DNA from: Pontiella desulfatans
Lineage (GTDB): Bacteria > Verrucomicrobiota > Kiritimatiellia > Kiritimatiellales > Pontiellaceae
DNA: 64,000 bases
Assembly: GCF_900890425.1 (NCBI RefSeq)
Contig: NZ_CAAHFG010000004.1
Span: forward strand, 1,036,330-1,100,329
Reading direction: 5' to 3'
Shown here: positions 7,733 through 26,950 of the stretch, piece after piece
How positions within the stretch are numbered: position 1 is the first letter of the stretch
Layout: each line of letters begins with the position of its first letter
Notes under the pieces: generated by a model
What the model saw: the letters and a program-made list of their open reading frames with translations, nothing else
Told to the model about the DNA's origin: nothing
Database searches by the model: none
Translations under genes and position numbers: made by a program

Positions 7733-8078
7733 TCATGAAGATTCTTAGAGGAAAACGCCTCGTTATAAAACCCATTTCCCAATCTAAACCCAAAGGGTTT
7801 TGCGGCTGCTAACTGAAGAGCCGAGAAACAAAGGGCAGGGCGGCTACCGGGCTGCATGGCTTCGCCGGCCATGGATGGCGATGCACTGATCCTGTGAACA
7901 AAACCCATCTTGACCGAATTCAGAAACAGTCGGGCCTGTCGTCATGAAGTTCCACGAGCGGAACGTCCAATGTTTGAAAAAGCGGCGTCCGGTTTCATAA
8001 AACCCGATTCCCGCTTCATGAGGCCTGATTGCTGATTCGGGGGTGGTGGGATACATTCTGTTTTTAGGAGTTTACCCT
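7733..8078. promoter_or_regulatory. Divergent intergenic region, kinase / GH43
   Basis: These 346 bp separate divergent transcription units and must contain both promoters, but I see no convincing -35/-10 pair. A small inverted repeat, GTTCC-N6-GGAAC (7949-7964), could be an operator. A Shine-Dalgarno AGGAG at 8066-8070 fixes the GH43 start at 8079. No gene is supported here. Confidence 0.4.
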
Positions 8079-9089
8079 ATGGCGAAATGGACAAGATATC
8101 TTGTGCCGCATCTATACACGGCAGACCCGCATGCGCATGTGTTTGACGGGAAGCTATATATTTATCCCTCGCATGATATTGATGCGGGCATCCCGGAAAA
8201 CGATAATGGCGACCACTTCGCCATGCGGGATTACCATGTCTTTTCGATGGAGGACATCGAAGGGGATGTTACCGATCATGGCGTTGCGCTGAAGTTGGAG
8301 GATATTCCATGGGCCGGTCGCCAATTGTGGGATTGCGACTGTGCCTGCAAGGACGGCAAATATTACCTCTATTTCCCGCTGAAAGACCGTTCGGATATTT
8401 TCCGCATCGGTGTGGCCATCAGCGACAAGCCGGAGGGGCCCTTTGTTCCTCAGGAAGTTCCAATGGCTGGAAGCTATTCGATCGATCCTTGCGTCTTCCG
8501 TGATGAGGACGGCTCGCACTACATGTACTTTGGCGGTATATGGGGCGGGCAGCTGCAATCCTATCGGAACAACCAGGCGGTTGAGAACGGGAAGGAACCC
8601 GCCGACGATGAGCCGGCGCTCCCCCCGCGGGTGGCTAGGCTGCGCGATGATATGCTCCAGTTTGGCGAGGAACCGCGTGCCGTTGTGCTTCTGGATGAAC
8701 AGGGCGAGGAGCTGAGAGCCGGCGACCATGAGCGTCGCTTCTTCGAAGCCGCGTGGATGCACAGATACCAGGGCAACTATTATTTTTCATACTCCACGGG
8801 CAATACGCAAAAGCTGTGCTATGCCGTGGGGGACAATCCATACGGGCCGTTCACCTACCAAGGCGTGATTCTGACCCCGGTGGTGGGATGGACGACACAC
8901 CATTCGATTGCGGAGTTTAAGGGGAAGTGGTATCTGTTTCACCACGACAGCGGTCCGTCGGGAGGCAAGACCTGGCTGCGCAGCATGAAGGTCTGCGAGC
9001 TGGTATACCGCGATGACGGAACGATCTGCACGATGGACGGCGGGGGGGAAATGGAACCGCTGCAACCTCAGGATTTGACCGAAGCATAA
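8079..9089 (+). CDS. Glycoside hydrolase family 43 (beta-xylosidase / alpha-L-arabinofuranosidase type)
   Basis: 336 residues from ATG 8079, which has AGGAG eight bases upstream; an in-frame upstream GTG has none. Five-bladed-propeller GH43 features are present: catalytic base Asp16 in TADPHAHV, the pKa-modulating Asp136 in SIDPCVF and the general acid Glu223 in FFEAAWMH. There is no signal peptide, so it acts in the cytosol on imported oligosaccharides. It sits 8 bp upstream of a GPH-type symporter gene, an arrangement usual for xylo- or arabino-oligosaccharide uptake. GH43 members split xylose or arabinose from short chains; which one cannot be decided here. Confidence 0.9.
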   Translation: MAKWTRYLVPHLYTADPHAHVFDGKLYIYPSHDIDAGIPENDNGDHFAMRDYHVFSMEDIEGDVTDHGVALKLEDIPWAGRQLWDCDCACKDGKYYLYFPLKDRSDIFRIGVAISDKPEGPFVPQEVPMAGSYSIDPCVFRDEDGSHYMYFGGIWGGQLQSYRNNQAVENGKEPADDEPALPPRVARLRDDMLQFGEEPRAVVLLDEQGEELRAGDHERRFFEAAWMHRYQGNYYFSYSTGNTQKLCYAVGDNPYGPFTYQGVILTPVVGWTTHHSIAEFKGKWYLFHHDSGPSGGKTWLRSMKVCELVYRDDGTICTMDGGGEMEPLQPQDLTEA

Positions 9090-9097: not shown

Positions 9098-10585
9098 ATG
9101 GGACATTTTCATCAGAAACTCTCCTTCCGCGAAAAGGTAGGCTACAGTCTGGGTGATGGAGCCGCCAACCTGGTCTTCCAGGTTTTGATGGCTTATCAGT
9201 TCATGTTTTTTACGCAGATTCTGGGGCTGAGCCCCAAGGCGGCGGGGCTCCTGTTTCTGATCGGACGCTTCTTCGATGCCTTCACCGATCCGGCCATGGG
9301 GTTTGTTGCTGACCGCACAAAGACCAAGTGGGGACGCTTCCGTCCCTGGCTGATTTGGTCGGCGCTTCCTTTTGCCGCCATTTTCTGGCTGACCTTCACC
9401 AGCCCCGGATGGTCGCCCACGGGGCAGATGGTCTATGCCTACCTCATGTATTTCCTGCTGATGGCCGTCTATACCGTGAACAACGTGCCGTATTGCGCGT
9501 TGAACGGAGTGATGACGGGCGACGTGGATGAACGCACCAGCCTTTCCACCTACCGGTTTGTTTGCGTCACGATTGTTTCGTTCATCGTGCAGGGCATGAC
9601 ACTGCCGCTGGTTGATAAATTCGGGCAGGGCGACGATGCCAAGGGCTGGTCGATCACCATGGGCATTTTCGCGGTGGTAACCATTTTCCTCTTCGTGATC
9701 TGTTTCTTCTCGGTGAAGGAGCGCGTGGAGCCCGACCCCGATCAGCAGTCGTCTGCAAAACAGGACATGCTGGACACGTTTAAAAACCGCCCGTGGGTCA
9801 TCCTGTTCAGCGCCACGCTGATGATTTTCATCATGCTGGTGGTTCGCGGCGGATCGCTGCCTCTTTTCATGGAACACATCGCCGACCGTCAATCGTTGGC
9901 GGACTTTATTGGAAGCATGGGGCTTCAGTCGGTTGACGGCGTTGCCCCGACCGGCTTCGGGAAATTCCTGAACGCCTTCGGTTATCTGCTGAAGCCGGAT
10001 CATTCCAATGTGCCCGGCGTCGCCTACGGCATCATGGGTATGCTGGGCACCTTTACCATGTTCCTTGGCGTTTTGTGCTCCAAGCCCCTTTCGAAGCTCT
10101 TCGGGAAGCGGATGGTGTTTGTGGGATCGCTAGTGGTAACGACGTTCGTGACCCTGTGGCTGTTTTATATTCCTTCCACGAATGTCCGCGCCATGCTGTG
10201 GCAGAGCGCGTTGTGGGGGTTGGCGTACGGCCCCACCGTTCCGTTGTTGTGGTCGATGATTGCCGATACCGCCGACTATTCCGAATGGAAGACGGGTCGC
10301 CGCGCGACCGGGTTTACCTTCGCGGGCGTGGTCTTTGCCCTCAAATTCGGGTTGGGGGTCGGCGGCTATATCCAGGGGCTGATCCTTGCCCAATACGGTT
10401 ACGAAGGCGGGGCTGAGCTGGCTGAACGCGCCATGACCGGCATTCGTGTTGCCTCGTCCGTTGCGCCGGCCGCGTTCATCATTGCGGCAGTGGCCATTCT
10501 GCTTTTCTATCCGATATCGAAAGAGCTGAACTATCAGATTGGCGATGATCTCGCGAAGCGGCGGAAAGAGCGGGCTGGGGAATAG
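9098..10585 (+). CDS. GPH-family sugar:cation symporter (MFS)
   Basis: 495 residues with about 12 membrane helices. The N-terminus FREKVGYSLGDGAANLVFQ and the loop DAFTDPAMGFVADRTKTKWGRFRPW are hallmarks of the glycoside-pentoside-hexuronide:cation symporter family (MelB, XylP, XynB-type transporters). It imports sugars with Na+ or H+ across the inner membrane. It begins 8 bp after the GH43 stop with AGGGG upstream, so the pair forms an operon. The likely cargo is xylosides or arabinosides released by the extracellular enzymes encoded downstream. It ends only 10 bp from the convergent regulator gene. Confidence 0.92.
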   Translation: MGHFHQKLSFREKVGYSLGDGAANLVFQVLMAYQFMFFTQILGLSPKAAGLLFLIGRFFDAFTDPAMGFVADRTKTKWGRFRPWLIWSALPFAAIFWLTFTSPGWSPTGQMVYAYLMYFLLMAVYTVNNVPYCALNGVMTGDVDERTSLSTYRFVCVTIVSFIVQGMTLPLVDKFGQGDDAKGWSITMGIFAVVTIFLFVICFFSVKERVEPDPDQQSSAKQDMLDTFKNRPWVILFSATLMIFIMLVVRGGSLPLFMEHIADRQSLADFIGSMGLQSVDGVAPTGFGKFLNAFGYLLKPDHSNVPGVAYGIMGMLGTFTMFLGVLCSKPLSKLFGKRMVFVGSLVVTTFVTLWLFYIPSTNVRAMLWQSALWGLAYGPTVPLLWSMIADTADYSEWKTGRRATGFTFAGVVFALKFGLGVGGYIQGLILAQYGYEGGAELAERAMTGIRVASSVAPAAFIIAAVAILLFYPISKELNYQIGDDLAKRRKERAGE

Positions 10586-10595
10586 ATCCGTTCGT

Positions 10596-11750
10596 TTAAC
10601 GATCCCGTTCTTGTTGTTTCATTTTCCGGTATTTTCCCGGCGTTGTTCCATATTCCGTCTTGAAGCTGTTGATCAGGGTGTCGACGGAATAGTAGCCGCA
10701 GTTTTCGGCGATGTCCTCGAGTGTGGCTGTGGTGCAGCTCAAAAGATGGGCGACGGACTGGATGCGCTGGTAGCGGATTTCCTGCCCGGGAGAGCGGGAA
10801 TAGTTTGCGGCAAAGGCCTTCTGAAGTCCCTGTTGGGTCACGCCCATGGCCTCGGCCACGTCGGTGGCCTGAATGCCGGTGTGGAAGTTGTTCTGGATCC
10901 AGTGCAGCGCATCGGAAACCAGCGGGTTGCGCACGGCATAGCAGTCGGTGCTCCTGCGCACAACAACCTCGGCCGGGGCGTGGCGGATCACCGTTGCCTC
11001 CGCCTTGCGCGCTGGCTGCTCCAGAAGGCCGCGAAGGGTGTTGGCGGCCAACCGGCCCAAACCTTCCTGATCGGTCTCGATGCTGCTCAGGCCAACCGTG
11101 AGCCCGGCGTTGACCAGATCGTCGTTATCCACACCCAGTACGGCCATGTTTTCCGGAACGCGCAGCTCGTTCCGCAGGCAAAGGGATATCAGCTCCGCCG
11201 CCATATTATCCTGGTAGGCAAAGAATCCTAAAGACAGCTCCTCCAGACGGTTGCCGCGTTTTTTTGCAATCTGTTCCATTTCCCGGATAACGCCCGGCTG
11301 CATGTTTTCCGATGATTGGAGAACCGTGACGGAGCCGCCATCTTCCTCCATGAATTCGCGCAATGCATCCAGGCGCTCCTGATACATCCGGATATTTCCC
11401 GGGCCGAGGGCGAAGACTTCGCGATAGCCGTGGTCGCGGAAATGTTCGGCGGCAAGGCGGCCGATTTCGCGGTTGTCGGTCACGACGCGCGGAATGGGAA
11501 GGTTGTGTTCGCCGAGGCCAAGATCGACCAATGGAATTTTGTGGGTACGGAAATATTGCAATGTCTCCCTGCACTGGAGCAAGGCGATGCACCCATCGCC
11601 CTTCCAGTCCTTCAGGTACCCGTCGTTGGTGACCGGATCCTTCGGGCAATTGAGCTGCCAGCCGGCTTCGCGCGCAACCTGCGCCACGCCGCGGTGGATG
11701 CGGTAGTCGTACCATTCCAACAGCAGCATGATGTGTTTGCGTTTGATCAT
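10596..11750 (-). CDS. XylR-like AraC-family transcriptional regulator with LacI-type sensor domain
   Basis: 384 residues. The N-terminal part (about 1-280) is a periplasmic-binding-protein-like sugar-sensing domain, starting KRKHIMLLLEWYDYRIHRGV, as in E. coli XylR. The C-terminal 100 residues form an AraC double helix-turn-helix (GVTQQGLQKAFAANY, then DIAENCGYYSVDTLINSFK). E. coli XylR activates xylose genes on binding xylose, so this gene fits a pentose-responsive switch for the surrounding locus. It is divergent from the LamG-like/GH30 genes and convergent with the symporter. An AAAGG Shine-Dalgarno lies upstream of ATG 11750. Confidence 0.9.
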   Translation of the reverse strand: MIKRKHIMLLLEWYDYRIHRGVAQVAREAGWQLNCPKDPVTNDGYLKDWKGDGCIALLQCRETLQYFRTHKIPLVDLGLGEHNLPIPRVVTDNREIGRLAAEHFRDHGYREVFALGPGNIRMYQERLDALREFMEEDGGSVTVLQSSENMQPGVIREMEQIAKKRGNRLEELSLGFFAYQDNMAAELISLCLRNELRVPENMAVLGVDNDDLVNAGLTVGLSSIETDQEGLGRLAANTLRGLLEQPARKAEATVIRHAPAEVVVRRSTDCYAVRNPLVSDALHWIQNNFHTGIQATDVAEAMGVTQQGLQKAFAANYSRSPGQEIRYQRIQSVAHLLSCTTATLEDIAENCGYYSVDTLINSFKTEYGTTPGKYRKMKQQERDR

Positions 11751-11970: not shown

Positions 11971-13824
11971 ATGAAAAAGTGCTTAACGATAGTCGCAGCA
12001 ACCCTCTTGGTTGCCTGTAGTTATGCAGGGACGCTTGAGGACTGGCAATTCAACGATGCCAATGGAACTGCGCTAAACAGCGTTACGAACACGGGGACGG
12101 TCGGCTCGTCCTGGAATTTTGGCGGGCCATCGACACAGGCGGGCGATCTCAACATTGGTGACGCCACCTTCTACAAGTGGAATCCGGGCAGCGGAACAAC
12201 CTTTAGAACGGCCGATTTTACCGAGCTTACCTCCGGCCAGTATATATTTGAATTTGTCGTTTCCGATTGGAATATGGCGGGTACAGATGGCCTTGGCGTC
12301 GTTAATAACGGAATAAAATTCGCGTTCGGACACACGACGAACGGGAGTGCCCAGATTGAATTTGAAGTCGCCCAAGCACCTGGCAATGATATGCGCGTGC
12401 GTTCACAAAATTCAAACAACGGAAATCTCTCCGGCACGGATGCTCAAAATCAACTGGGCAGTTTGAATTTAACCAATACCGCACCGGTTACGGTGCAACT
12501 TCTGGTCGATCTCGATACGGGCGAATGGTCTACGCAGGTTGATGCCGGAAGTGGTTTTGTCGCGCTGGTGTCTGACGGAACCGGAATGACAATGATTGAC
12601 CGTATACAGCTCATCGTTGATGCCAGTAACGGGACCTGGGAATTCGGCGGCGCGGCTGGAACGGCAACGGAATTCATCAAGATTGATTCGGTGTCCCTGT
12701 CCGAGCCGGCTCCCGACCCATGGAGTAAACTCGAATACTGGGATTTTGAAGCTGATGCGGCCAACAAGTCATTTGGTACGAATTGGGTTAACTCAGGTTC
12801 TTTGGGCAGTGAGTGGACTTTTGGCGGACCGGACACCATAACAACGGATGGTGCGGGTAGTTTAATTGTCAGCAACCACTCCGGCGAGGTATTCCGGAAG
12901 CTTCCGAAAGCGGGAACCGCCAATGCGAATCCAACGAACGATGCCTATGCGACAGCCTTTACCACCGGTAAATATCGTTTGGAAATGAATTTTGCTTCAT
13001 GGGATCTTCCGGAGGGTGCCGACAGCGGAAACCTCGAGCTTCAGGCGTTGTCCGGCACAAATGCCGTCGCCCTGATTCGCCTGAGGGTCAATGACGCAGG
13101 AAATGCCACATGGATGCAACTGATGGGTGTGGAATCAGGAGCTCAAAAATTCAACACCTATGGCCTCGGTACTGCCAGCACAAACAGAACGACCCCGGCG
13201 ACGGCTGTGATCGAATTTGATTTCGACAACGATACCATTGAATACTTCCTGAATGGTGAGCTGAAGAAATCTACGAATGTGTTTAACGAAGCCGGTTTCG
13301 ATCAACTGGTATTCACAACAGATGCAAACTGGTCATCAAATAATGTGGTGGTGATCGAATCGATGGGACTGTCAACATTCATAGATCCAAATGCGACTAA
13401 TGATACTCCCACGTCGCTATGGAGTGAATGGATTGCTCTTTATCCGGGTGTAGGAGCCAGCTCAAATCTGCTGGATAACGGCGACAGTGATGATCTGGAT
13501 AATCTGACCGAATATGCCTACGGCGGTGATCCTTCGGATGGCGGCGACCAAGGCAATGTGCCGGTGCAGTCGCAGGTCGCCGCGGGAGGAACTAACTATC
13601 TCGAATATATCTACTACGAACGAACCGATGCGGACGACCGAGGGCTGGCTTCGATCCTCGAGGTGGGTACCGATCTGGTCATCACCAACTGGGCCGATGG
13701 AAGCGGCTATGAAACAGCCAGCGGTGCATCGGGTGTAACAGGGTTCAATGCCATAACCAACCGGATTCCAACCGATACTGAAGCTCAGCAGTTCATTCGG
13801 CTTCAGATTGAATTCACGCCGTAA
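11971..13824 (+). CDS. Secreted protein with two LamG/concanavalin-like domains and a C-terminal Asp-rich module
   Basis: 617 residues from ATG 11971; the open frame extends further upstream, but the Shine-Dalgarno and a signal peptide (MKKCLTIVAATLLVACSYAG) favour this start. Residues about 20-240 form a beta-rich domain beginning LEDWQFNDANGTALNS, and a second related domain starts at about residue 250 (LEYWDFEADAANKS). The tail has a Ca-binding-like NGDSDDLDNLTEYAYGG segment, resembling type-3/dockerin-like loops, and ends in RLQIEF. The first domain is closely similar to the protein encoded at 18288. Such proteins probably bind glycans at the cell surface, but no enzyme motif is seen. It heads the GH30-sulfatase transcription unit. 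Confidence 0.75.
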   Translation: MKKCLTIVAATLLVACSYAGTLEDWQFNDANGTALNSVTNTGTVGSSWNFGGPSTQAGDLNIGDATFYKWNPGSGTTFRTADFTELTSGQYIFEFVVSDWNMAGTDGLGVVNNGIKFAFGHTTNGSAQIEFEVAQAPGNDMRVRSQNSNNGNLSGTDAQNQLGSLNLTNTAPVTVQLLVDLDTGEWSTQVDAGSGFVALVSDGTGMTMIDRIQLIVDASNGTWEFGGAAGTATEFIKIDSVSLSEPAPDPWSKLEYWDFEADAANKSFGTNWVNSGSLGSEWTFGGPDTITTDGAGSLIVSNHSGEVFRKLPKAGTANANPTNDAYATAFTTGKYRLEMNFASWDLPEGADSGNLELQALSGTNAVALIRLRVNDAGNATWMQLMGVESGAQKFNTYGLGTASTNRTTPATAVIEFDFDNDTIEYFLNGELKKSTNVFNEAGFDQLVFTTDANWSSNNVVVIESMGLSTFIDPNATNDTPTSLWSEWIALYPGVGASSNLLDNGDSDDLDNLTEYAYGGDPSDGGDQGNVPVQSQVAAGGTNYLEYIYYERTDADDRGLASILEVGTDLVITNWADGSGYETASGASGVTGFNAITNRIPTDTEAQQFIRLQIEFTP

Positions 13825-13858
13825 GCACGTTGCCAGGTCAAAAAGTATTAAATGTGTG

Positions 13859-13878
13859 CGCCCCGGCTTGCCGGGGCG
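13859..13878 (+). terminator. GC-rich intercistronic hairpin
   Basis: CGCCCCGG-CTTG-CCGGGGCG is a perfect 8-bp stem with a tetraloop between the surface-protein gene and the GH30-sulfatase gene. No U tract follows, so it may instead stabilise the upstream mRNA or attenuate transcription. Confidence 0.5.
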
Positions 13879-13940
13879 TATGCTTAACGATGAGTGGTTG
13901 GGCGCATCAAAGCGTCTAGTGGTGTAAAGAGGCAAGTTAC

Positions 13941-16900
13941 ATGAGCATTAGAAGAACAAAACATATCGTTTCAGCATTTCTCGTTCTGCTGGTTGCCGGC
14001 GCTCAATCCGCGCTTGTAGTGGATTTTGATGCCGCGGTGCTGGTAACGAACAACAGCTCGAATGTCAGCTCGGATACGGCCCTGAATATCGGTGCGCCCC
14101 TCATCACAGCCGATGGCGTGAACTATATCGGGCCGGATGTTTATGGCGCATTGCACCGGCAGAATGCAGGCGTCTGGACGGTTGGCAACAATGGGGCTTC
14201 CGGCCTGCGGGTGCGTTTCAATACCGGTGATTTCGGGCATGCCGTTGCCGGCCTGTTTCTTTTTAAAACAGACGCCGTTCAGTTTAATATCGCAAATGAC
14301 ACAATGAATGCGGCGGATATTTTCACCAGTCAGATCCAGCGACTGGATTCGGCGACCATCCGCTTTGTCGTCGAGGATGGCGGCCAGTTTTATATTTCCT
14401 CTTCTTCCGCAAATTTTTCAACAGGAGGCTCAGGCAACCAAGGCGATGCCTTCAGCATTGAAGCGCTGAGCGCAAGCTGGTTTAACTATGATCCCTCAAC
14501 AGCCACAGGCGTTTCCGCAATCGGCTCCGCTGCAACACCCGCCTTTGCAGACATTGGTTTTGTTGGATTCACCCTGTTTGCAGACTCGATCGATGCAGGC
14601 GATGCAAGCGTCAACTTCGGGGTTCGGGAATTTTACGTATCAGCCATTCCGGCTTCGGCAGGTTCGGCAGCCGGGGTAGTGAATGCCGGGCTGAAGCATC
14701 AGAAGATCGAAGGGTTCGGGGCATCCGCCGCATTCTATATCAATAAGCTGATCGAAAATGATCACTCCAACGAGTTGGCCAATCTGTTGTTCGAGGATCT
14801 GAACCTGGATATTTTCCGGATTCGCAATCTCTATTTGGCTGATGAATCCAATGTTCAGAACAATATCGATGGTACGATCACGACCCTTCAAATGGGCGAA
14901 GCTTCTCTTGGGAGGCCGCTAAAAGTTCTGATGTCGGCCTGGACGCCGCCGGATGACCTGAAAAGCAATACGAACAAAATCGGCGGAACGCTGGCTTCCG
15001 ATGGCGGCGGTTATCGTTACGACGATTTTGCCCAGTGGTGGGCCGACAGCCTCGACTACTATGCAACACTTGGCATTTCCCCGGATTATATCAGCATTCA
15101 GAATGAGGCGAACTGGGAGGCAACGCATGCTTCCTGCAAGTTTGACCCAATAGAAACCGGAAGCTTCGCCGGCTACAACATCGCCTTCGAAAAAGTGTGG
15201 CAGAAGCTGGCGATCGAAATGGGGACGGCCGCGATGCCGAAAATGCTTGGTCCGGAATTGGTCGCATTCAACAAGCTGGATGAATACATCGATAACCTGC
15301 TCTATCCGTTGCACGCCTATGGGTATGCGCACCATTTGTATAGCAGCAATGTCGGCTCCAACCCATCTGTCCTGAATGCCGAGATGCAATCGACGAACGA
15401 CGACTACGATTACAGGCCGCTGTTCCAAACGGAATATTACAGCGGCGCCTCCCCGACGGATTGGCTGCGGAAATACAATCTCGCGAAGCTTATGTTTAAC
15501 TCGCTTACGATTGAAGAAGTCTCTGCGTATCTCTATTGGTGTTTGTATTGGCCTTTCGACGACGGACAGGCGCTGATTACCCTGCCGGATGATTCCTCCT
15601 ACGACATCAATCCGGAATATTATGCCTTCAAGCATTATTCAGCGTTCATCAATACCGATTGGCGGAGGCTGGATACCACATCATCGAAACCGGGCGTTGA
15701 TCTGGCCGCCTTCATCAGTCCCGCTGGCGACGAAGTTAGCGTCGTGATCCTCAATTCCAACGGAAGCCTTGTGGATCTGGATTTATCGTTTTCGGGTGTC
15801 ACGATTACGGGAGGAGATATCTATCGCTCCACCTCCAGTTTAAACTGCACGAACATCGGCAGCTTTAATCCTGCTGCCACGAATCTAGTCATCCCGGCGG
15901 AATCGATCACCACGCTAGCGCTTACAGCCTCCCCGAACACGGCCCCATCTAATCCAAATATTCTGATGGTTTATGTCGACGATCTCCGGCCGCAAACCAG
16001 AAGCTATGGTGCGGCGCAGATGATCACGCCGAACATGGATCAGATTGCGGCGGATGGCTATCAGTTCAACCGCGCTTATGTGCAGCAGGCAGTCTGTTCT
16101 CCCTCGCGCACCAGTTTAATGACCGGCATGCGCCCCGACTCGACACAGGTATTTGATCTGACGACCGACTTCCGCGACACGATTCCGTGGGTAGAAACCC
16201 TGCCGCAATACCTGCAGGATTATGGCTACTATTCTGTCGGTATCGGTAAGGTTTATCATGGAAGCCTGAATGATGATTTGTCGTGGAGCGAATCATGGAG
16301 CGCCGGTTCCGGAACCTATGGTTCGGTTGGCGCGGGTAATCCGCCCACAGAAAGTCCGAATGTGGCGGATAATGTGCTGCGCGATGGCGCTGTAACGGAT
16401 GAGGCCGTTATCAAACTGGCCGACCTTAAAACGAAGCAGCCTTTCTTTTATGGGGTGGGCTATGTTCGTCCGCACCTTCCGTTTGTAGCACCTCAAACCT
16501 ATTGGGATCTATACACGACCAACGATCTGGTTTATCCCCATACGGATGATCCGGCTGTCGATGCTTCAAGCTTGGCCTACACGACCTGGGGTGAATTGCG
16601 CGGGTACGACGGAATTCCTGCCAGTGGTCCGGTTTCATCAGCACAGGAACAGGAACTGATTCACGGGTACTATGCTTGCGTGTCCTATATGGATGCGCAG
16701 CTCGGTCGTTTAATGGCCGCGCTCGAAAATGAAGGCCTTTCCGAAAATACGATTGTTGTAGTCTGGGGCGATCACGGCTGGCATCTGGGCGACCATGGCC
16801 AGTGGACCAAGCACACCAATTTTGAATTGGCCACCCGGATTCCTATGATCATAAAAGTTCCATGGATGCCCGGCGCTGCGCAAATCGATGCACTGACCGA

Positions 16901-18140
16901 AGCCGTTGATCTCTATCCGACGCTACTCGATCTCTGCGGCGTTCCGCACCCCGTCCAGCTCGAAGGCGACAGCCTGATGCCGTTACTTGAAAGTCCGGAT
17001 TCAGCGGGAGAAGCCGATGCCATCAGTCAATATCCGCGCAGCGGTAACATGGGCTATTCCATGCGCACCGACCGGTATCGCTATACGGAATGGCGTCTCG
17101 AAAATTCCAATATTATCGTCGATCGCGAACTGTACGACCAGTTCCTCGATCCGCGCGAAGACACCAACGTGGTGGATCACATTGTATACGCTGCCGATGT
17201 TGCAACCCTCGCCGCGCAGCTGCAGGCACGGCTGGACGAACTGAATCCCTCGTCAGGTGCCAATGGCGAGAATCTGGTCTTGAATGGCGATTTCGACGAT
17301 GATTTGAACGACTGGGTTCAAACGATCAACGGAGCCTCGGCTTCATTCGCCACCAACGGCCCCGTAGCCGATCCGGAATTGTACGTGAGCATTACCGATG
17401 GTACGGCAGATAAATACCGGTTGGCTATCGAGCAGATTGTGCCGGCTCAGCAGGGCAAGCTTTATACCATCCGTTTCAGCGCCCGAGCCGCCGCCGACCG
17501 GACCATCACCATTCTGTGGCGAAACAAGGACAATGTCGGGACGGCTTATCTGACGTTGAATATTCCGATTGATACGGTCAGCCGCACATATGAGTTCTCG
17601 GCCATCCAGCTCGCGAATATCACCGGCACCGATCCCGATGGCGAAATCCGCATTCAGTTCGGCGGCGATGATGCCGATGTCTGGATCGATGCCATAGAAA
17701 TCTATGCCGAAACTTCTTTTGCAGCAGCACTGGTAGAAGCCGGACTGAGCGGCACCGATGCTCTGGCAAGTTCAGATGCCGATGGAGACATGGCCATTAA
17801 TCTGTTTGAGTATGCTTCCAATCTGGATATGGCAACCAACGATTATCATCGGCTGGTTTCCGGCAGTGGAACGTCCGGCCTGCCGACGTATCAGATTGCT
17901 CCCTCCAACAGTTTCCAGACGCTGGAGCTTGAATATCTCCGTCGGCGCGGCGCTTATGACCTCCAATACATCCCTGAGTTTACCGGGAATCTGGTTGGAG
18001 GGGAATGGGCTGAATCTGTCGCTTCCGAAACAGTCGTGCTGATCGACTCTGACTGGGAACGCGTAACCGTTAGAGATGTTGAAACCACCGAAACCTCCAC
18101 CAACCGCTTTGGCCGCGTCCGGATCCTCTTCAGACCGTGA
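13941..18140 (+). CDS. GH30 glucuronoxylanase-like / S1 sulfatase fusion with binding domains
   Basis: 1399 residues, secreted (signal peptide about 1-24). The order is an N-terminal beta-rich domain (to about 235), then GH30 (about 245-660), a family S1 sulfatase (about 671-1100), a CBM-like beta-sandwich (NLVLNGDFDDDLNDW, about 1115-1265) and an Asp-rich C-terminal module. GH30 signs are KIEGFGASAAF, an acid/base Glu in SIQNEANW, a nucleophile Glu in LFQTEYY and the trailing beta-domain. The sulfatase has the VDDLRP metal site and the formylglycine motif CSPSR with Cys719, and resembles iduronate-2-sulfatase. It would cleave a xylan-like backbone and remove sulfate in one polypeptide. The formylglycine-generating enzyme is not in the window. 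Subfamily and substrate are inferred. Confidence 0.9.
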   Translation: MSIRRTKHIVSAFLVLLVAGAQSALVVDFDAAVLVTNNSSNVSSDTALNIGAPLITADGVNYIGPDVYGALHRQNAGVWTVGNNGASGLRVRFNTGDFGHAVAGLFLFKTDAVQFNIANDTMNAADIFTSQIQRLDSATIRFVVEDGGQFYISSSSANFSTGGSGNQGDAFSIEALSASWFNYDPSTATGVSAIGSAATPAFADIGFVGFTLFADSIDAGDASVNFGVREFYVSAIPASAGSAAGVVNAGLKHQKIEGFGASAAFYINKLIENDHSNELANLLFEDLNLDIFRIRNLYLADESNVQNNIDGTITTLQMGEASLGRPLKVLMSAWTPPDDLKSNTNKIGGTLASDGGGYRYDDFAQWWADSLDYYATLGISPDYISIQNEANWEATHASCKFDPIETGSFAGYNIAFEKVWQKLAIEMGTAAMPKMLGPELVAFNKLDEYIDNLLYPLHAYGYAHHLYSSNVGSNPSVLNAEMQSTNDDYDYRPLFQTEYYSGASPTDWLRKYNLAKLMFNSLTIEEVSAYLYWCLYWPFDDGQALITLPDDSSYDINPEYYAFKHYSAFINTDWRRLDTTSSKPGVDLAAFISPAGDEVSVVILNSNGSLVDLDLSFSGVTITGGDIYRSTSSLNCTNIGSFNPAATNLVIPAESITTLALTASPNTAPSNPNILMVYVDDLRPQTRSYGAAQMITPNMDQIAADGYQFNRAYVQQAVCSPSRTSLMTGMRPDSTQVFDLTTDFRDTIPWVETLPQYLQDYGYYSVGIGKVYHGSLNDDLSWSESWSAGSGTYGSVGAGNPPTESPNVADNVLRDGAVTDEAVIKLADLKTKQPFFYGVGYVRPHLPFVAPQTYWDLYTTNDLVYPHTDDPAVDASSLAYTTWGELRGYDGIPASGPVSSAQEQELIHGYYACVSYMDAQLGRLMAALENEGLSENTIVVVWGDHGWHLGDHGQWTKHTNFELATRIPMIIKVPWMPGAAQIDALTEAVDLYPTLLDLCGVPHPVQLEGDSLMPLLESPDSAGEADAISQYPRSGNMGYSMRTDRYRYTEWRLENSNIIVDRELYDQFLDPREDTNVVDHIVYAADVATLAAQLQARLDELNPSSGANGENLVLNGDFDDDLNDWVQTINGASASFATNGPVADPELYVSITDGTADKYRLAIEQIVPAQQGKLYTIRFSARAAADRTITILWRNKDNVGTAYLTLNIPIDTVSRTYEFSAIQLANITGTDPDGEIRIQFGGDDADVWIDAIEIYAETSFAAALVEAGLSGTDALASSDADGDMAINLFEYASNLDMATNDYHRLVSGSGTSGLPTYQIAPSNSFQTLELEYLRRRGAYDLQYIPEFTGNLVGGEWAESVASETVVLIDSDWERVTVRDVETTETSTNRFGRVRILFRP

Positions 18141-18287
18141 ACTTTCTGCGTGTTCAGATTTCAGTATACAGCGTTCAGGAGTGCCGATTGCCGATATGGC
18201 TTCGGCGTATATTATGTAATACCTAATCGAATAAGAAAAAGACGCGGACGCTGTAAGCGTGCGTAACGTTTGAACGGAGGAACAATA

Positions 18288-19106
18288 ATGAAGAAACTGG
18301 GAATGGCAGGACTGACGGCGATGCTGTTGGTTGCCGTAAGCAATGCGGATGTGCTGGAGGATTGGCAATTCAACGATGCCAATGGTACGGCGCTGAACAG
18401 CGTCAACAACAGCGGATCGGTCGGGTCTTCGTGGAATTTCGGCGGCCCCCAGACGCAGGCGGGAAGCCTCAACATCGGCGATGCCAACTACTTCAAGTTT
18501 AATCCGGGCAGTGGACAAACCTATAGAACCGCCGATTTTGCGCAACGCACATCCGGCCAGTATATCTTTGAGTTTGTTATCGCTGATTGGGATTTGGCCG
18601 GCACCGATGGAATCGGAACCGTTAACAATGGAATAAAATTCAATTTCGGAAGTGCAACGAACGGAAGCGCACAGCTTGAATTTGAAGTCGCTCAATCGGG
18701 CAGTAATGATATCCGTGTCCGTTCACAGAATTCAAACAACGGAACGTTGTCCGGAACGGACTCCCAGCATCAACTAGGCGGTCTGAACCTGACGAATACT
18801 TCCTCAGTTACGGTTCAGCTGCTTGCGGACCTCGACACTGGCGTCTGGTCTACCCGGGTAGATTATAATGGAAGCTGGGCGGATCTCGTTACCGACGGCA
18901 CGGGAATGACCTCGATCGACCGGATCCAGCTCGTGGTTGACGCCAGCAACGGAACCTGGGAATACGGTGGTATCGGCGGAACGGCTACGGAATTCATCAA
19001 AATTGATTCGGTTTCCCTCACCCAGATTCCGGAACCGGCTACGCTGGGGATGATTGCGGTCTTCGGCGGAGGCATCCTTTTTATACGCCGCCGTTTCATG
19101 ATGTAG
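18288..19106 (+). CDS. PEP-CTERM surface protein with one LamG-like domain
   Basis: 272 residues from ATG 18288, with GGAGG seven bases upstream. A signal peptide is followed by a single beta-rich domain that is nearly the same as the first domain of the 11971 protein (shared LEDWQFNDANGTALNSV and VGSSWNFGGP). The C-terminus is a PEP-CTERM sorting signal: PEPATLG, a hydrophobic helix, then RRR. Exosortase would process it and anchor or export it to the outer surface; no exosortase gene is in the window. It follows the GH30-sulfatase gene and ends at a clear terminator. It may display a glycan-binding domain for the enzymes encoded around it. Confidence 0.85.
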   Translation: MKKLGMAGLTAMLLVAVSNADVLEDWQFNDANGTALNSVNNSGSVGSSWNFGGPQTQAGSLNIGDANYFKFNPGSGQTYRTADFAQRTSGQYIFEFVIADWDLAGTDGIGTVNNGIKFNFGSATNGSAQLEFEVAQSGSNDIRVRSQNSNNGTLSGTDSQHQLGGLNLTNTSSVTVQLLADLDTGVWSTRVDYNGSWADLVTDGTGMTSIDRIQLVVDASNGTWEYGGIGGTATEFIKIDSVSLTQIPEPATLGMIAVFGGGILFIRRRFMM

Positions 19107-19133
19107 CTGCATGGAGCAGGATAAATTTCAGCG

Positions 19134-19391: not shown

Positions 19392-20735
19392 ATGAATGGA
19401 AACAGACGCGGATTAATAAAAGGGATGATGATCATAGCCGTGGGTGTGGCTATGGGAATGGGCGCAGCGGAGTTTAAAACACCTGTTACATCGATCGACC
19501 TGCAGGATGGCGACACGCTTGTTTTTCTGGGCGACAGCATTACGCACCAGTGCCTCTACACGCAGTATGTGGAGGATTATTTTTATACCCGCTATCCGGA
19601 TCGCCGGATCCTTTTCCACAATGCGGGCGTCAGCGGCGACCGTGCGGCCGACGCGCTCGACCGTTTCGCCGAGGATGTTGCTCCGTTCGAACCGAAATAT
19701 ATTACGGTGCTGCTGGGCATGAACGACGGCAGTTATCAGCACTTTGATCTCGGGATTTTCAACACCTATGAAACGGGCATGACCGAGCTCGCCGACCGCA
19801 TGGACGCGCTCGGCGCGGTCGAAGTCTTTATGGGGCCGACGATGTATGATTCGCGCGTGGCCTCGGTCACGCCGCCGCACTGGCTGAAAGACCAGGAAAA
19901 GATTGCTCAGGCCAGGCACTATTACAACGCGGTGCTCGCATTTTATGGAACCTGGTTGCGCGACACCGCGGTGGAGCGCGGGGCGGGGTATGTGGATCTG
20001 CTCGGGCCGCTGAATTTCCACACCACCCAGCAGCGCCTTGAAGATCCGGCGTTTACCCTGATTCCGGATGCGGTTCATCCGGGGCCGGCCGGCCATGCGG
20101 TGATGGCGTTCGAGCTGCTCGAACAGATGAATGCCGACCGCTCGGTCAGCGGGATCAACGCATCCACGAAGCCGGATGGAAGCTGGCGGGTCGCCTCGCC
20201 GAATGGTGAGGTGTCGGACATATCCGGCGACGGCGCATCGCTTCGGTTCACTTTCAAGGCGCAGGCATTGCCGTGGGTGCTGCCGCCGGAAGCCACGCTC
20301 GGCTATGAAATTACAAAGTCCGGACATAAGATGAGCAATGAACATCTTTCCGTACGCGGGCTGAAACCCGGCAAATACAGTCTGAAAATCGACGGCATCG
20401 AAGTGGGGCACTACTCGCATGCCCAGCTCGGTTCCAAGGTGGAGCTGCAGAGCAACGAAAAGACGCCGCAATACCAGCAGGCGCTTGCGGTCGCGTTGCT
20501 CAACAAGGAGCGCAACGACAAGGCGGTTCATCCCCTGCGGGATCAATGGGGCGCCCGCAAAGGCAAGCGCCGCGAAAAACTGCAGGAAAAAGATCCCGAA
20601 GCCTATGCGCAGTTTTATTCGGCCTACGAGGCCGAGGTTGCCCACTTGCTGAACGTGAAGGCCGATTATGAAGAGCGCATTCACGAGCTCGCGCAACCAA
20701 GGGCGCGTGTCTATGAAATCAGTCCGGTAAAATAA
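19392..20735 (+). CDS. Secreted SGNH/GDSL-family esterase
   Basis: 447 residues; signal peptide (about 1-26), AAGGAG upstream of ATG 19392. SGNH blocks are visible: nucleophile Ser49 in FLGDSITHQ, the Gly in NAGVSGDRAAD, Asn in LLGMND and the Asp/His pair in IPDAVHPG. After the hydrolase domain (to about 260) come a beta-rich region and a charged helical tail (KGKRREKLQEKDPEAYAQF) of unknown role. SGNH enzymes deacetylate glycans or cleave other esters. Between sulfatase, GH30 and GH10 genes, an acetyl-xylan-esterase role is reasonable, but it is inferred from context only. Confidence 0.85.
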   Translation: MNGNRRGLIKGMMIIAVGVAMGMGAAEFKTPVTSIDLQDGDTLVFLGDSITHQCLYTQYVEDYFYTRYPDRRILFHNAGVSGDRAADALDRFAEDVAPFEPKYITVLLGMNDGSYQHFDLGIFNTYETGMTELADRMDALGAVEVFMGPTMYDSRVASVTPPHWLKDQEKIAQARHYYNAVLAFYGTWLRDTAVERGAGYVDLLGPLNFHTTQQRLEDPAFTLIPDAVHPGPAGHAVMAFELLEQMNADRSVSGINASTKPDGSWRVASPNGEVSDISGDGASLRFTFKAQALPWVLPPEATLGYEITKSGHKMSNEHLSVRGLKPGKYSLKIDGIEVGHYSHAQLGSKVELQSNEKTPQYQQALAVALLNKERNDKAVHPLRDQWGARKGKRREKLQEKDPEAYAQFYSAYEAEVAHLLNVKADYEERIHELAQPRARVYEISPVK

Positions 20736-20855
20736 CTATCGCCACGGATTCGCTCCCGTTTCATTTTTCAGGTTTTAGGCGTCAATAGTCGCGGTTTACG
20801 CGGCGCTGGGGTGCGCATACCATTGATGGCCTCAATAGAAACAGAACGAGCGGGT

Positions 20856-22562
20856 ATGAATATGAAAGGGTTACGGTATTTATCAATTGTTTTCATGGGG
20901 GCAGCGATTGCATCCGGCGTTCCGGTGCAGTCGGTATCGAAACCCAATGTGCTCTTCATTATGATCGACGACCTGCGTCCGCAGCTGGGTTGCTATGGGC
21001 ATACCGAAACCCTTTCCCCGAATATCGACCGACTGGCGAGTGAGGGCCTGCTGTTCAACCGCGCCCATGTGCAGGTGCCCGTCTGCGGCGCATCGCGCGC
21101 AAGTCTGTTGACCGGGCTTTATCCCACGGCGGATCGCTTTGTGACCTACTATACCAAAGCGCAGGAGGATGCGCCCGCCATACCGGACATCCCCGCCCAC
21201 ATGAAGGCGAATGGCTATACCACCATTTCAAACGGTAAGGTCTATCACCATGCCGACGATAATACCAACTCGTGGCACGAGATCCACAAGCCGAAGGACT
21301 TCCGCGTCTATCTCAAGCCGGAAAATCAGGGCAGGGAATGGGCAGAAATGGCGGCCTGGGAAGATGCCGATGTGCCGGACAATGCCTATCCCGGTGGAGC
21401 GCTGGCCGACAAGGTGATTAAAGACCTGCAGCGAGCCAAAAACGAAGGGACGCCTTTCTTTATTACCGCCGGGTTCACCAAGCCGCACCTGCCGTTTAAC
21501 GCACCCAAAAAATATTGGGACATGTATGACCCGGAAAGGCTCGCGCTGGCCGACAACCCGTTCGCCCCGAAAGACGCGCCTTCCAATGCCATTCATCAGT
21601 GGAACGAACTGCGCGACGGCTATGGCGGAATGCCGACCAACGGGCCGGTCTCCGATGCCGTTGCACGAAAACTGATTCATGGGTATTACGCCTGTGTGTC
21701 CTATACCGATGCGCAGGTCGGCAAGCTGCTCGACGAGCTGGAGCGGCTGGAACTGCGTGAGGATACGATTGTTGTTCTAATGGGAGACCACGGATGGCAG
21801 CTGGGCGAGCATGGACTTTGGTGCAAGCATGCTCTGTTCAACACCTCAACCTATACGCCGCTCATGATCAGCGCGCCCGGTTTCAAGCAAGGCCAGCGCA
21901 CGGATGCCCTGGTGGAGTTTGTGGACATCTATCCTTCACTTTGCGAGCTGGCCGGTCTTCCAAGGCCTGGACACCTGCAGGGAAAAAGTTTTGTTCCATT
22001 GCTCAACGAACCTTCCAGGGATTGGAAACAAGCGGTATTCAGTCGCTATCATGCCGGCGAATCGATCACGACGGATCGCTATTCCTACTCGGAGTGGTCT
22101 GATGGCAGCCGCATGCTGTACGACCATAGGAAGGATCCGGATGAAAATACGAACATTGCGGTTTTGCCGGAATATGCACAGCTCACCGAAAAACTTTCGC
22201 GGGAGCTGCAAAAGCACCGCGAAAAGGTTAAAGCCCTGGATCTGGCTTCCGGCCTTCGAAAAACCGAAAACGTTCCGCCGACCTGGAAGTCAAAGCGGTT
22301 CCAGCAGAAAGCTGCAACAGCCGGTCAGCCTTACATGAACTATATCAACTGGCGGGTTTCGGATGCCGATGGAGATGAGCTCAGCTACGCCAAGATCCGC
22401 GGGCCTGAATGGCTGACGGTCTCCAATGCAAAATTCGGAAAAATTGAAGGAACGCCGGCAGCTGATAACGTGGGGATCAATCTATTTGTGGTGAGTGTTT
22501 CAGATGGAGTCAATGCTCCGGTTGAGGCCACGATGGAATTGGATGTGCTGCCGGCGAAATAG
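20856..22562 (+). CDS. Family S1 sulfatase (iduronate-2-sulfatase-like) with C-terminal Ig-like domain
   Basis: 568 residues from ATG 20856, chosen because it gives a standard signal peptide; an in-frame ATG at 20811 would add 15 residues. Metal-binding IDDLRP follows the leader, and the formylglycine motif is CGASR with Cys77, the Ala-type variant. GKVYHHADD, TKPHLPF and LMGDHGWQLGEHG are further S1 landmarks, close to those of the sulfatase half of the 13941 fusion. Residues from about 480 form a cadherin/Ig-like module (INWRVSDADGDELSY). It should hydrolyse a sulfate ester of a glycan outside the inner membrane. It lies between the SGNH esterase and the GH10-sulfatase on the same strand. 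Confidence 0.93.
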   Translation: MNMKGLRYLSIVFMGAAIASGVPVQSVSKPNVLFIMIDDLRPQLGCYGHTETLSPNIDRLASEGLLFNRAHVQVPVCGASRASLLTGLYPTADRFVTYYTKAQEDAPAIPDIPAHMKANGYTTISNGKVYHHADDNTNSWHEIHKPKDFRVYLKPENQGREWAEMAAWEDADVPDNAYPGGALADKVIKDLQRAKNEGTPFFITAGFTKPHLPFNAPKKYWDMYDPERLALADNPFAPKDAPSNAIHQWNELRDGYGGMPTNGPVSDAVARKLIHGYYACVSYTDAQVGKLLDELERLELREDTIVVLMGDHGWQLGEHGLWCKHALFNTSTYTPLMISAPGFKQGQRTDALVEFVDIYPSLCELAGLPRPGHLQGKSFVPLLNEPSRDWKQAVFSRYHAGESITTDRYSYSEWSDGSRMLYDHRKDPDENTNIAVLPEYAQLTEKLSRELQKHREKVKALDLASGLRKTENVPPTWKSKRFQQKAATAGQPYMNYINWRVSDADGDELSYAKIRGPEWLTVSNAKFGKIEGTPAADNVGINLFVVSVSDGVNAPVEATMELDVLPAK

Positions 22563-22601
22563 CGCGATTTTTTTTAGTTAGGTTGGATCGAGAGAAAAAC
22601 C

Positions 22602-25277
22602 ATGAAGTCATATTTTATACAACTGCTCTGTGTCATCGGTGCCGTGTCTTGCGCATCCGCCGCCCCGCTGAAGGATGAATTTTCCGATGACTTCCTGATG
22701 GGAACGGCACTGGGGAGCCGCCATGTGAACCATCACTATCGGTATCCCATGCGGCAGGATGCAAAGGAGCTCGCCGTGGTGACCCGGGAGTTCAATTGCC
22801 TTACCGCCGAGAACCTGATGAAAATGGAATACCTCCAACCCCGGGAGGGCTTCTTCAACTTTGAGCAGGCCGATGAATTCATGGCCTTTGCCGAGGAGAA
22901 CGGCATGGCCGTCGTCGGCCATGCGTTGGTCTGGCATTCGCAGACACCGGATTGGCTGTTCAAAGACAAGTCCGGCAATCCGGTTTCGCGCGAGGTGCTC
23001 ATTGCGCGGATGCGCAACCACATTCACACGGTGGTCGGCCGCTACAAGGGCCGCATCAAATACTGGGATGTGGTCAACGAGGCCATCGATACCAAGATGG
23101 TGGTGGATGAAAGCCTTCCATTGGATGAAGAGGGAAACCCGCAAAAAAAACGAGTGGCTTTTTATCGCGATTCCCCATGGCTTCAGATCATTGGCGAAGA
23201 CTATATCGAACTCGCGTTCCGCTTTGCGCACGAAGCCGACCCGGGAGCCCGGTTGCTTTATAATGACTTCAGCATGACCGACCGGGCCAAGGTTGAATTT
23301 GCCGCCGGGATGGTGCAAGGCTTGAAAGCCCGGGGCGTCCCGATCGACGGCGTCGGGATGCAGGCGCACTGGCATTTGGATTATCCAGCGGTCGAGCAGC
23401 TGCAGGAGTCCATAGATATCCTGGCCGCAACCGGCGTGAAGCTCAGCATCACCGAACTCGACATCGGCGTGCTCCCGCGCGGAAACCATTATCAGGGAGC
23501 GGACGTAAGCCGGCGCGAGGAACTGCGCGCGGAACTCAACCCCTATACCAACGGGATCCCTGCGGAAATTCTCCGTGAGCAGGGCGAAAAATACCGTGCA
23601 TTATTCGAGGTGTTCCGCAAAAACCGGGAGCATCTTGAGCGGGTGACCGTTTGGGGCGTCTCGGATAAAGATAGCTGGAAAAATAACTGGCCGGTGCCGG
23701 GCCGAACGGCGGCCCCGTTGCTGTTCGACGCCAACTACCAACCCAAGCCCGCCTACTATGCGCTGCAGAAGCCCAGCATGGTCGTCATCATCTGCGACGA
23801 CCTCAACGACTCCATCGCAGGCATGGGTGGACACCCGCAGGCGAAGACGCCGAACATCGACCGCTTGATGGAGCGCGGTGTGCGTTTCGAAAACGCCGCC
23901 TCCAACTGCCCCCTGTGCGGGCCGTCGCGCGCCAGCCTCTGGAGCGGGCTGCTTCCGACCTCGACCGGCTACTATGGCTCCAACCAGCAGGCCAATCATT
24001 GGCGGAAAAATCCGGTGCTCAAGGAAGCGCCCACCCTGTTCGAACATTTCACGCGCAACGGCTACCGAAACTTTTCCACCGGCAAGATCCACCACAACGG
24101 CCATGAGGAGCTTTCGATCTTCCAGAATCCGGATGGTTTCCCGGGCTTTGGAAGCAAACCTAACTTCGGGCCGATTCCAAACGATGGAAAACCGAAAAAC
24201 CTGCGCAACGGCGTACTGCCCCCGTGGATGCCGGCAAAGCTGCGCAAGGAAGGTGGGTGGGGCGACGGCTTCGGCCCCGTTCAGGATCTGAAACCCTACG
24301 GCGCGGAGTATGGCTGGACGATGTTTTATTCCGGCGAGCCGTGGGAGTTCCGCAACGGCCACGACCGCGATCCCATGCCGGACGAAATGCATGCCGCCGA
24401 GGCCGTCAAGTTCCTCAAACAAAACCACGAAGCCCCGTTCCTGCTGACGGTCGGTTTCACGCGCCCGCATTCCCCGTGGTATGCACCGCAGGAATATTTC
24501 GATCAGTTTCCGCTCGAAACCATCGAACTTGCGCCCATCCTGAAAAACGACACCGACGACTGCGCAAAGATTCTTGTTGAGCAGAACGACATCGCCCAGC
24601 CATGGGGCTGGCAGAAATACAGGAAGATCATGGAAAACGGCGGCGAGCAACAGCTGCGCCAATGGACGCAGGCCTATCTCGCCTGCGTGGCGTTTGTCGA
24701 CGATCAGGCGGGAAAGATTCTCGATGCGCTGGATGAAAGCCCCTATGCCTGCAACACGCTGGTCATCCTCACCAGCGACCACGGCTACCACATGGGCGAA
24801 AAGGAATACCTGTTCAAATATTCCCCGTGGGAGGAGAGCGTCCGCATCCCGCTGGTGGTTGCCGGCCCGGGCGTGGCCACCAACCTGGCCTGCTCAACTC
24901 CGGTCTCGCTGATCGATCTTTACCCGACCTTTACCGACTATGCCCGTATGCCGCCGCCCCCGCGGCTCGACGGTTTTTCGCTGCGCCCCCTGCTGGAAGA
25001 TCCAGCGGCTGGAAAATGGGCCGGCCCGGCCTTTTCCCTCGCGGCGTCCGCCTCCAAGGTTCCGGTCGAGCAGAACGTTCCCGCCAAGGCGTCCGACCAG
25101 CATTTCAGCCTGCGCACCGAGCGCTACCGCTACATCCGCTGCCGCAACGGCGAGGAAGAGCTCTACGACCACCGGAACGATCCCAACGAATGGATCAACC
25201 TCGCCGGGAATCCGGAATTCGGGCAGGAGCTCGCCTCGTTGCGGGAAAAACTTGAACAAGCGGTTCCGCAGGATTGA
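22602..25277 (+). CDS. GH10 xylanase / S1 sulfatase fusion
   Basis: 891 residues, signal peptide about 1-20. Residues 25-390 are a complete GH10 domain: ENLMKMEYLQP, HALVWHSQTPDW, acid/base Glu160 in WDVVNEAID and nucleophile Glu285 in ITELDIG. Residues 395-885 form a sulfatase with CDDLND metal ligands, the formylglycine motif CGPSR at Cys439, TRPHSPWYAP and LTSDHGYHMGEK. The join is almost seamless (KPAYYALQKPSMVVIICDD). The protein should cleave beta-1,4-xylan and desulfate the same or a neighbouring sugar. No carbohydrate-binding module is present. It is convergent with the next sulfatase, with 7 bp between stops. Confidence 0.95.
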   Translation: MKSYFIQLLCVIGAVSCASAAPLKDEFSDDFLMGTALGSRHVNHHYRYPMRQDAKELAVVTREFNCLTAENLMKMEYLQPREGFFNFEQADEFMAFAEENGMAVVGHALVWHSQTPDWLFKDKSGNPVSREVLIARMRNHIHTVVGRYKGRIKYWDVVNEAIDTKMVVDESLPLDEEGNPQKKRVAFYRDSPWLQIIGEDYIELAFRFAHEADPGARLLYNDFSMTDRAKVEFAAGMVQGLKARGVPIDGVGMQAHWHLDYPAVEQLQESIDILAATGVKLSITELDIGVLPRGNHYQGADVSRREELRAELNPYTNGIPAEILREQGEKYRALFEVFRKNREHLERVTVWGVSDKDSWKNNWPVPGRTAAPLLFDANYQPKPAYYALQKPSMVVIICDDLNDSIAGMGGHPQAKTPNIDRLMERGVRFENAASNCPLCGPSRASLWSGLLPTSTGYYGSNQQANHWRKNPVLKEAPTLFEHFTRNGYRNFSTGKIHHNGHEELSIFQNPDGFPGFGSKPNFGPIPNDGKPKNLRNGVLPPWMPAKLRKEGGWGDGFGPVQDLKPYGAEYGWTMFYSGEPWEFRNGHDRDPMPDEMHAAEAVKFLKQNHEAPFLLTVGFTRPHSPWYAPQEYFDQFPLETIELAPILKNDTDDCAKILVEQNDIAQPWGWQKYRKIMENGGEQQLRQWTQAYLACVAFVDDQAGKILDALDESPYACNTLVILTSDHGYHMGEKEYLFKYSPWEESVRIPLVVAGPGVATNLACSTPVSLIDLYPTFTDYARMPPPPRLDGFSLRPLLEDPAAGKWAGPAFSLAASASKVPVEQNVPAKASDQHFSLRTERYRYIRCRNGEEELYDHRNDPNEWINLAGNPEFGQELASLREKLEQAVPQD

Positions 25278-26877: not shown

Positions 26878-26950
26878 GGAAACACTATAAAGGGGCCGCG
26901 GCTCGCCCCGCGACTTTTTTTTGCCGAATAACGCGGGTGGATCATGCGGG

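Follow-up and report, generated by a model that had tools for sequence, protein, structure and literature searches.

The window, a stretch of 64,000 nucleotides from Pontiella desulfatans, contains on its forward strand a gene (13941..18140) that reads as one unbroken frame for a secreted protein of 1399 amino acids, in which open reading frame analysis and profile searches recognise a GH30 glycoside hydrolase fused to a sulfatase. Its first 24 residues (MSIRRTKHIVSAFLVLLVAGAQSA, 13941..14012, forward strand) form a typical signal peptide, judged by eye from the sequence. Upstream on the same strand lie genes for a GH43 glycoside hydrolase (8043..9089; PF04616, E 4e-25), a glycoside-pentoside-hexuronide (GPH) cation symporter (9098..10585; TIGR00792 above its cut-off, PF13347) and a secreted protein with two beta domains (11971..13824), whose likely start is Met 82 of the listed ORF. 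Divergent from the cluster, on the reverse strand, is a XylR-like regulator with a periplasmic-binding-type sensor and an AraC HTH (10596..11750; PF13377, PF12833, weak PBP1_XylR). Downstream, again on the forward strand, follow a secreted protein of PEP-CTERM type (18270..19106) that shares the beta domain of the 11971..13824 product, a GDSL-family esterase or lipase (19392..20735; PF13472, E 4e-20), a stand-alone sulfatase with a C-G-A-S-R motif, kept in orthologous clusters (20811..22562), and a second fusion, GH10-sulfatase, with the glutamate motifs WDVVNE and ITELD and the sulfatase motif CGPSR (22602..25277). A distant sulfatase with a CTPCR motif (25285..27228) is encoded on the reverse strand.

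In the clusters of relatives, GH52, xylulokinase and xylose isomerase adjoin the fusion gene. The relative MED670 holds in one run GH52 (matched by Pfam at its C-terminal end only), GPH, XylR, two GH30-sulfatase genes, a sulfatase, GH10, xylulokinase and xylose isomerase. Judged by its gene content, with xylanases, sulfatases and xylose metabolism or transport together, the locus is predicted to be one for sulfated-xylan utilisation.

Domains of the fusion protein

The GH30 catalytic domain (residues 238-661, 14652..15923, forward strand) is easily missed. The Pfam barrel model PF02055 matches neither this domain nor anything else in the whole genome, so a Pfam-only annotation would overlook the fusion gene. 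The GH30 beta-sandwich model PF17189 matches barely above its cut-off, and NCBIfam XynC covers residues 242-660 with an E-value of 3.5e-12, under its curated cut-off. A phmmer comparison with 9ywn gave E 1e-57 and a profile comparison E 2e-155, and the AlphaFold2 model (pLDDT 87.8) aligns with 7n6h over 395 residues with Z 44.5. With a barrel plus beta-side-domain fold and two catalytic glutamates, membership of GH30 is secure. The acid/base E389 (15105-15107) and the nucleophile E498 (15432-15434) are invariant in 8/8 fused and 79/79 unfused domains.

GH30_8 enzymes bind the carboxylate of MeGlcA through an Arg, which is Arg270 in BpXyn30_8A (PMC12921914). In the alignment this position is occupied by Trp in 8/8 fusions (W537 here, 15549-15551) and in 73/79 unfused relatives, and F265 stands at the probable eukaryotic-Arg position, which leaves both recognition sites without Arg. 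By alignment, then, the domain lacks the hallmark of a GH30_8 glucuronoxylanase, and the original prediction that it reads side-chain uronic acid is not supported. The E389-E498 spacing is 109 residues, compared with 108 in AcXyn30B (PMC11058611) and 89 in BpXyn30_8A (PMC12921914). The predicted domain resembles GH30_12, a proposed subfamily of non-specific xylanases, AcXyn30B being compared by its description only. A basic pair, R510-K511, is invariant in 8/8 fusions and nearly missing from the 79 unfused relatives. It might accept sulfated xylose in the cleft, making the GH30 half itself a sulfoxylanase within one chain that both cleaves and desulfates a sulfated xylan not yet described; we think that this is rather unlikely.

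The sulfatase domain (residues 669-1102, 15945..17246, forward strand) matches PF00884 at residues 672-1001 (E 6e-43) and SGSH_C at residues 950-1096. The motif CSPSR at residues 719-723 agrees with C-x-P/A-x-R and provides the predicted formylglycine precursor C719 (16095-16097); together with the metal and sulfate ligands it identifies the domain, by sequence, as an S1 formylglycine sulfatase. D680, D681, C719, R723, K770, H773, H845, D944, H945 and K957 are invariant in the seven complete fusions. By both sequence and fold the nearest solved chains are S1_7 members, 6HHM (P18_S1_7; Z 46.7, 39% identity) and human IDS (Z 40.4, 36%), so that the iduronate-2-sulfatase likeness proposed at first holds as a general similarity, with P18_S1_7 closer. 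Iduronate-2- and galactose-4-sulfatases, human IDS included, are also covered by S1_7. The S-subsite motifs of the fused sulfatase align with those of P18_S1_7, an endo-xylose-2-sulfatase that acts on ulvan, where it takes the 2-sulfate off internal xylose (PMC9096561). In the tree, the GH30-fused sulfatases form their own clade, without a resolved sister relation to P18; given this and the mixed activities of S1_7, the step to xylose-2-sulfate is a weak one.

Three further regions accompany the catalytic domains on the forward strand. The CBM_4_9 domain (residues 1111-1208, 17271..17564) scores 35.1 bits against PF02018, above the gathering cut-off of 25.9, and has a homologue in four of seven full-length fusion copies. 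The C-terminal module (residues 1256-1399, 17706..18137), with an Asp-rich motif DADGD..NL.EYA and a beta region, is kept in most copies at 43-71% identity. The N-terminal region (residues 25-236, 14013..14648) has no Pfam match and is folded by AlphaFold2 as a beta-sandwich (pLDDT 78.3, pTM 0.82), whose best structural matches, at Z about 10 and 5-13% identity, include CBM27 and CBM28 and also non-CBMs such as MAM and adhesin folds. Its relatives are present in neighbour proteins of 943 and 931 aa in related genomes. Sugar binding by this candidate module is only plausible on the modelled fold; of the binding modules that the original prediction gave the protein, the CBM-like one at residues 1111-1208 is borne out. 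The rest of the proposed architecture stands: an intact, secreted chain carries an N-terminal beta domain, GH30 with both catalytic glutamates and a sulfatase with CSPSR, and backbone cleavage and desulfation are accordingly predicted activities of a single protein.

Distribution and origin of the fusion

The same fusion is found as eight genes, one of them truncated, in seven Pontiellaceae-type assemblies. Its recurrence in independently assembled genomes cannot be accounted for by chance or misassembly, and conservation of the active sites, the glutamates without exception in the eight genes and the sulfatase site in every one of the seven that are complete, shows that it is no artefact. In the isolate SAT197 the N-terminal domain is swapped for the beta-domain type of the 11971..13824 product. 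Outside Pontiellaceae-type genomes the fusion was absent among the best 79 loci of a genome scan, those ranked above some 180 further matches, and among 387 genomes of the phylum no close GH30 of the fusion clade was found beyond the genus, a restriction that concerns this GH30 clade and not other GH30 subfamilies. About 79 related GH30 domains of other taxa have no fused sulfatase; many are in plain xylan loci and, in many phyla, adjoin GH10, XylR, GPH, xylA and xylB, which places the parent GH30 clade in xylan loci.

The sulfatase of the neighbouring GH10 fusion belongs to a separate clade, so the GH30-sulfatase is an independent fusion; a common origin of the two fused sulfatases was considered and ruled out (SH-aLRT 100 for each clade). 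Fusions could arise often in a genome so extremely rich in sulfatases, with at least 150 scored here and 521 reported (PMC6388578), and the two halves might then be joined merely physically, for shared secretion or co-regulation, acting on different molecules without a coupled mechanism. Against this, the cluster contains two xylanase-sulfatase fusions of independent origin, both of them kept in several species, and we consider an uncoupled pair improbable.

Predicted substrate and comparison with known systems

In our opinion, at a probability of about two in three, this secreted protein is a bifunctional enzyme, with predicted activities, for xylan bearing sulfated and probably O2-sulfated xylose. 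A xylan-type target is well supported by gene content, because the loci combine a GPH symporter and a XylR-like regulator with GH10-sulfatase and either GH43 or GH52; one relative has xylA and xylB as well. The enzyme would be kept on the polymer by CBM_4_9 and probably also by its N-terminal beta-sandwich. The S1_7-like domain, with C719 matured to formylglycine, would take sulfate esters, most likely 2-O-sulfate, off internal xylose; the GH30_12-like domain might next cleave the beta-xylan backbone so exposed by a retaining mechanism that uses E389 and E498, without need of a glucuronic-acid side chain. The adjoining GH10-sulfatase fusion and the stand-alone sulfatase may carry degradation further, GH43 (GH52 in relatives) would trim oligosaccharides for import by the GPH symporter, and xylose isomerase and xylulokinase would lead into central metabolism, with a XylR-type regulator in control.

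An ulvan-like xylorhamnan or another heteropolymer merely containing sulfated xylose, with GH30 acting on xylose-rich parts, would agree with the action of P18_S1_7 on ulvan (PMC9096561) and with the xylose-2-sulfate adjoining rhamnose-3-sulfate in that polymer (PMC8511951); yet GH10 and GH30 beta-1,4-xylanases together require a run of xylose, and an examination of cluster genes turned up no polysaccharide lyase, rhamnosidase or unsaturated uronidase, so we consider such a substrate improbable. Of the sulfated glucuronoxylan first proposed as target, with GH30 recognising uronic-acid side chains and iduronate-2-sulfatase-like desulfation, the sulfated xylan is reasonable from the gene neighbourhood and the P18_S1_7 likeness, whereas the glucurono- part, for all the GH30 xylanase fold, the place of human IDS within S1_7 and one GH115 elsewhere in the genome, is very doubtful in view of W537 and F265, a locus where no alpha-glucuronidase was found, a genome without GH67 and an IDS that is not the nearest sulfatase.

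The place of the fusion inside a xylose-use cluster of a marine sediment bacterium suggests consumption of sulfated algal xylan. Sulfated xylan as a carbon source in algal blooms is often inferred from gene content, and no characterised xylanase-sulfatase for it was found in the literature searched. Because both predicted activities and binding modules are in one protein of a seemingly cultivable anaerobe, that inference becomes directly testable, and the protein would give a reagent to detect sulfated xylan. P. desulfatans grows on xylose and does not grow on unsulfated xylan (PMC7356697, PMC10880615); lack of induction or uptake could be another cause of the latter.

No earlier description of a GH30-sulfatase fusion was found in the open-access literature, nor does GH30-S1_7 appear among the fusions named in the available part of PMC6388578. 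That source presents GH10-S1_7 fusions of Pontiella, PDESU_06089 (probably the 22602-25277 gene) and SCARR_04194, and the sulfatase-glycoside hydrolase fusion PHEL49_1323 of Polaribacter Hel1_33_49; in all of them a single marine bacterial protein joins both functions, the Pontiella pair with GH10 where the 13941-18140 product has GH30. GH30 would be the third partner family of S1_7-type sulfatase fusions in these strains, after GH10 and GH32. In North Sea Bacteroidetes, predicted PULs for sulfated xylan likewise group sulfatase-bearing GH10, GH30, GH43 and extra sulfatases, but with separate GH30 genes and SusC/D instead of one GH30-sulfatase chain and a GPH symporter (PMC6794258, PMC6298971). 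P18_S1_7 of Formosa agariphila (6HHM) stands alone in an ulvan locus, away from the clade of the fused sulfatases. AcXyn30B, founder of the proposed GH30_12, whose clade of non-specific endo-xylanases includes clostridial members, has no sulfatase and comes from another organism and habitat, while it shares with the fusion the Trp at the prokaryotic-Arg site and nearly the same spacing of the catalytic glutamates (PMC11058611).

One chain with two conserved active sites

The GH30-sulfatase protein is a single chain with intact, conserved active sites, encoded in a xylan-type neighbourhood and carrying Trp in place of the glucuronate-binding Arg. Its ORF (13941–18140, + strand) translates as an uninterrupted frame of 1399 codons plus stop. 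The single polypeptide, both GH30 catalytic Glu residues (E389, acid/base; E498, nucleophile) and the exact position of C719, the formylglycine precursor in CSPSR, are as the original prediction had them. Pfam places the sulfatase domain at residues 672–1001, its C-terminal domain at 950–1096 and, in agreement with the proposed CBM-like domain, a CBM_4_9 at 1111–1208, a region found in 4/7 full-length fusion copies. The GH30 domain is barely detected by Pfam, whose GH30 barrel model gives no match to it; the assignment is clear from sequence comparison with solved GH30 xylanases. In an AlphaFold2 model of residues 238–1102 (pLDDT 87.8, pTM 0.86), the GH30 part matches AcXbh30A with Z 44.5 and the sulfatase part matches 6HHM, the P18_S1_7 structure, with Z 46.7.

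The proposed N-terminal beta domain is a beta-sandwich in the predicted structure, with no family match. In relatives, proteins of 943 and 931 aa encoded upstream of the fusion contain related copies, which fits, without proving, a candidate binding module. Large secreted proteins upstream of relatives' fusions (L031 locus, 603–3473; L032 locus, 4295–7093) contain several copies of this domain and match no Pfam family. The SAT197 fusion has it swapped for the domain type of window proteins 11971–13824 and 18270–19106.

Besides the window, fusions are carried by P. sulfatireligans F21, Pontiellaceae bacterium B12227, MED670 (two tandem genes), ERR2098388_bin.74, SAT197 and casp15-mb.89 (a truncated copy), with 42–67% whole-protein identity to the window protein. 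The GH30 Glu pair is invariant in 8/8 fusions and the sulfatase site residues in all seven complete copies. The sulfatase is absent from all 79 unfused GH30 relatives recovered (the best 79 loci of the genome scan), many of which adjoin GH10, XylR-type regulator, GPH symporter, xylA and xylB genes; the GH30 clade from which the fusions derive thus belongs to xylan loci. This distribution suggests that the sulfatase was acquired by GH30 within this lineage. The fusion is the only close member of the clade found by searching the window's genome. Two other genomes of the genus encode same-clade GH30 proteins without sulfatase (L026 locus, 5678–9028; L027 locus, 1–3468), the former joined to Laminin_G_3, fn3 and DUF1349 domains in a domain scan.

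Specificity of the two catalytic domains

In GH30_8 enzymes, an Arg (Arg270 in BpXyn30_8A) binds the MeGlcA carboxylate (PMC12921914). W537 aligns with this Arg, and Trp is found there in 8/8 fusions and 73/79 unfused relatives. AcXyn30B, a non-specific endo-xylanase and founder of the proposed GH30_12, likewise has Trp at the Arg site and a Glu-Glu distance of 108 (PMC11058611). That distance is 109 in the fusion and 108 in clostridial relatives, versus 89 in BpXyn30_8A. The Trp and the AcXyn30B-like spacing therefore do not support the proposed reading of side-chain uronic acid.

Close to where helix 7 of GH30 begins lies a basic pair, R510-K511 (15468–15473), that all eight fusions share without exception and the 79 unfused relatives almost entirely lack; it is a candidate sulfate contact. 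Shared ancestry alone could account for this conservation, since the fusions form one clade. That GH30 itself tolerates sulfated xylose through this pair seems unlikely.

The suggested resemblance of the sulfatase to iduronate-2-sulfatase (IDS) held as similarity to the human enzyme but not as closest match: in structure comparison human IDS scores below P18_S1_7, the nearest solved protein, which is reported to be an endo-acting xylose-2-sulfatase of ulvan (PMC9096561). We infer a sulfate at xylose O2 with moderate confidence, because the tree does not place the fused sulfatase clade as sister to P18_S1_7 or IDS.

Gene neighbourhood and proposed mechanism

The fusion lies at 8043–25277 among genes for two hydrolases (GH43 and GDSL), a GPH symporter, a divergently oriented XylR-like regulator, secreted proteins with beta domains, a sulfatase and a GH10-sulfatase fusion. 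The latter (22602–25277) has both GH10 Glu motifs and CGPSR, and is the strongest match among the genome's three GH10 genes. In the sulfatase tree, the domains fused to GH30 and those fused to GH10 fall into separate clades, each with SH-aLRT 100, so xylanase-sulfatase joining happened twice; 22602–25277 is an independent second such fusion in the same cluster. The 8.66 Mb genome (six contigs) has at least 150 scored sulfatases, and PMC6388578 gives 521 for P. desulfatans F1. Upstream of their GPH gene, ERR2098388_bin.74 and MED670 have a GH52 gene, identified in MED670 from the gene's end only, the part within the stretch read; MED670 also has xylulokinase and xylose isomerase genes downstream of GH10.

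Elsewhere in the window, Type I restriction-modification R, M and S genes are followed on one strand by genes for an AAA ATPase, an RNA-ligase-family protein and a Fic protein (30310–39543), possibly a defence island. A histidine kinase with an NMT1/THI5-type sensor domain (5876–7732) adjoins a LytTR response regulator, and squalene-hopene-cyclase-like proteins, two PQQ beta-propeller proteins and a polyprenyl synthetase-DUF116 protein are grouped at 41130–49915.

We think that the binding modules would anchor the fusion protein on the polymer, the sulfatase domain would strip sulfates from internal xylose and GH30 would cleave the desulfated backbone, leaving products for the GH10-sulfatase, for GH43 or GH52, for the GPH symporter and for xylose metabolism. 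Xylose supports growth of both P. desulfatans and P. sulfatireligans, whereas plain xylan does not (PMC7356697, PMC10880615). Machinery dedicated to sulfated xylan would explain this pattern, other causes being possible. Sulfated xylans are stated to occur in red algae (PMC6262041).

Comparison with known systems

No GH30-S1_7 fusion was found in the accessible text of the open-access papers searched. PMC6388578 already describes GH10-S1_7, GH32-S1_7 and GH29-S1_15 fusions from these strains. Sulfated-xylan loci have been predicted in Bacteroidetes (PMC6794258).
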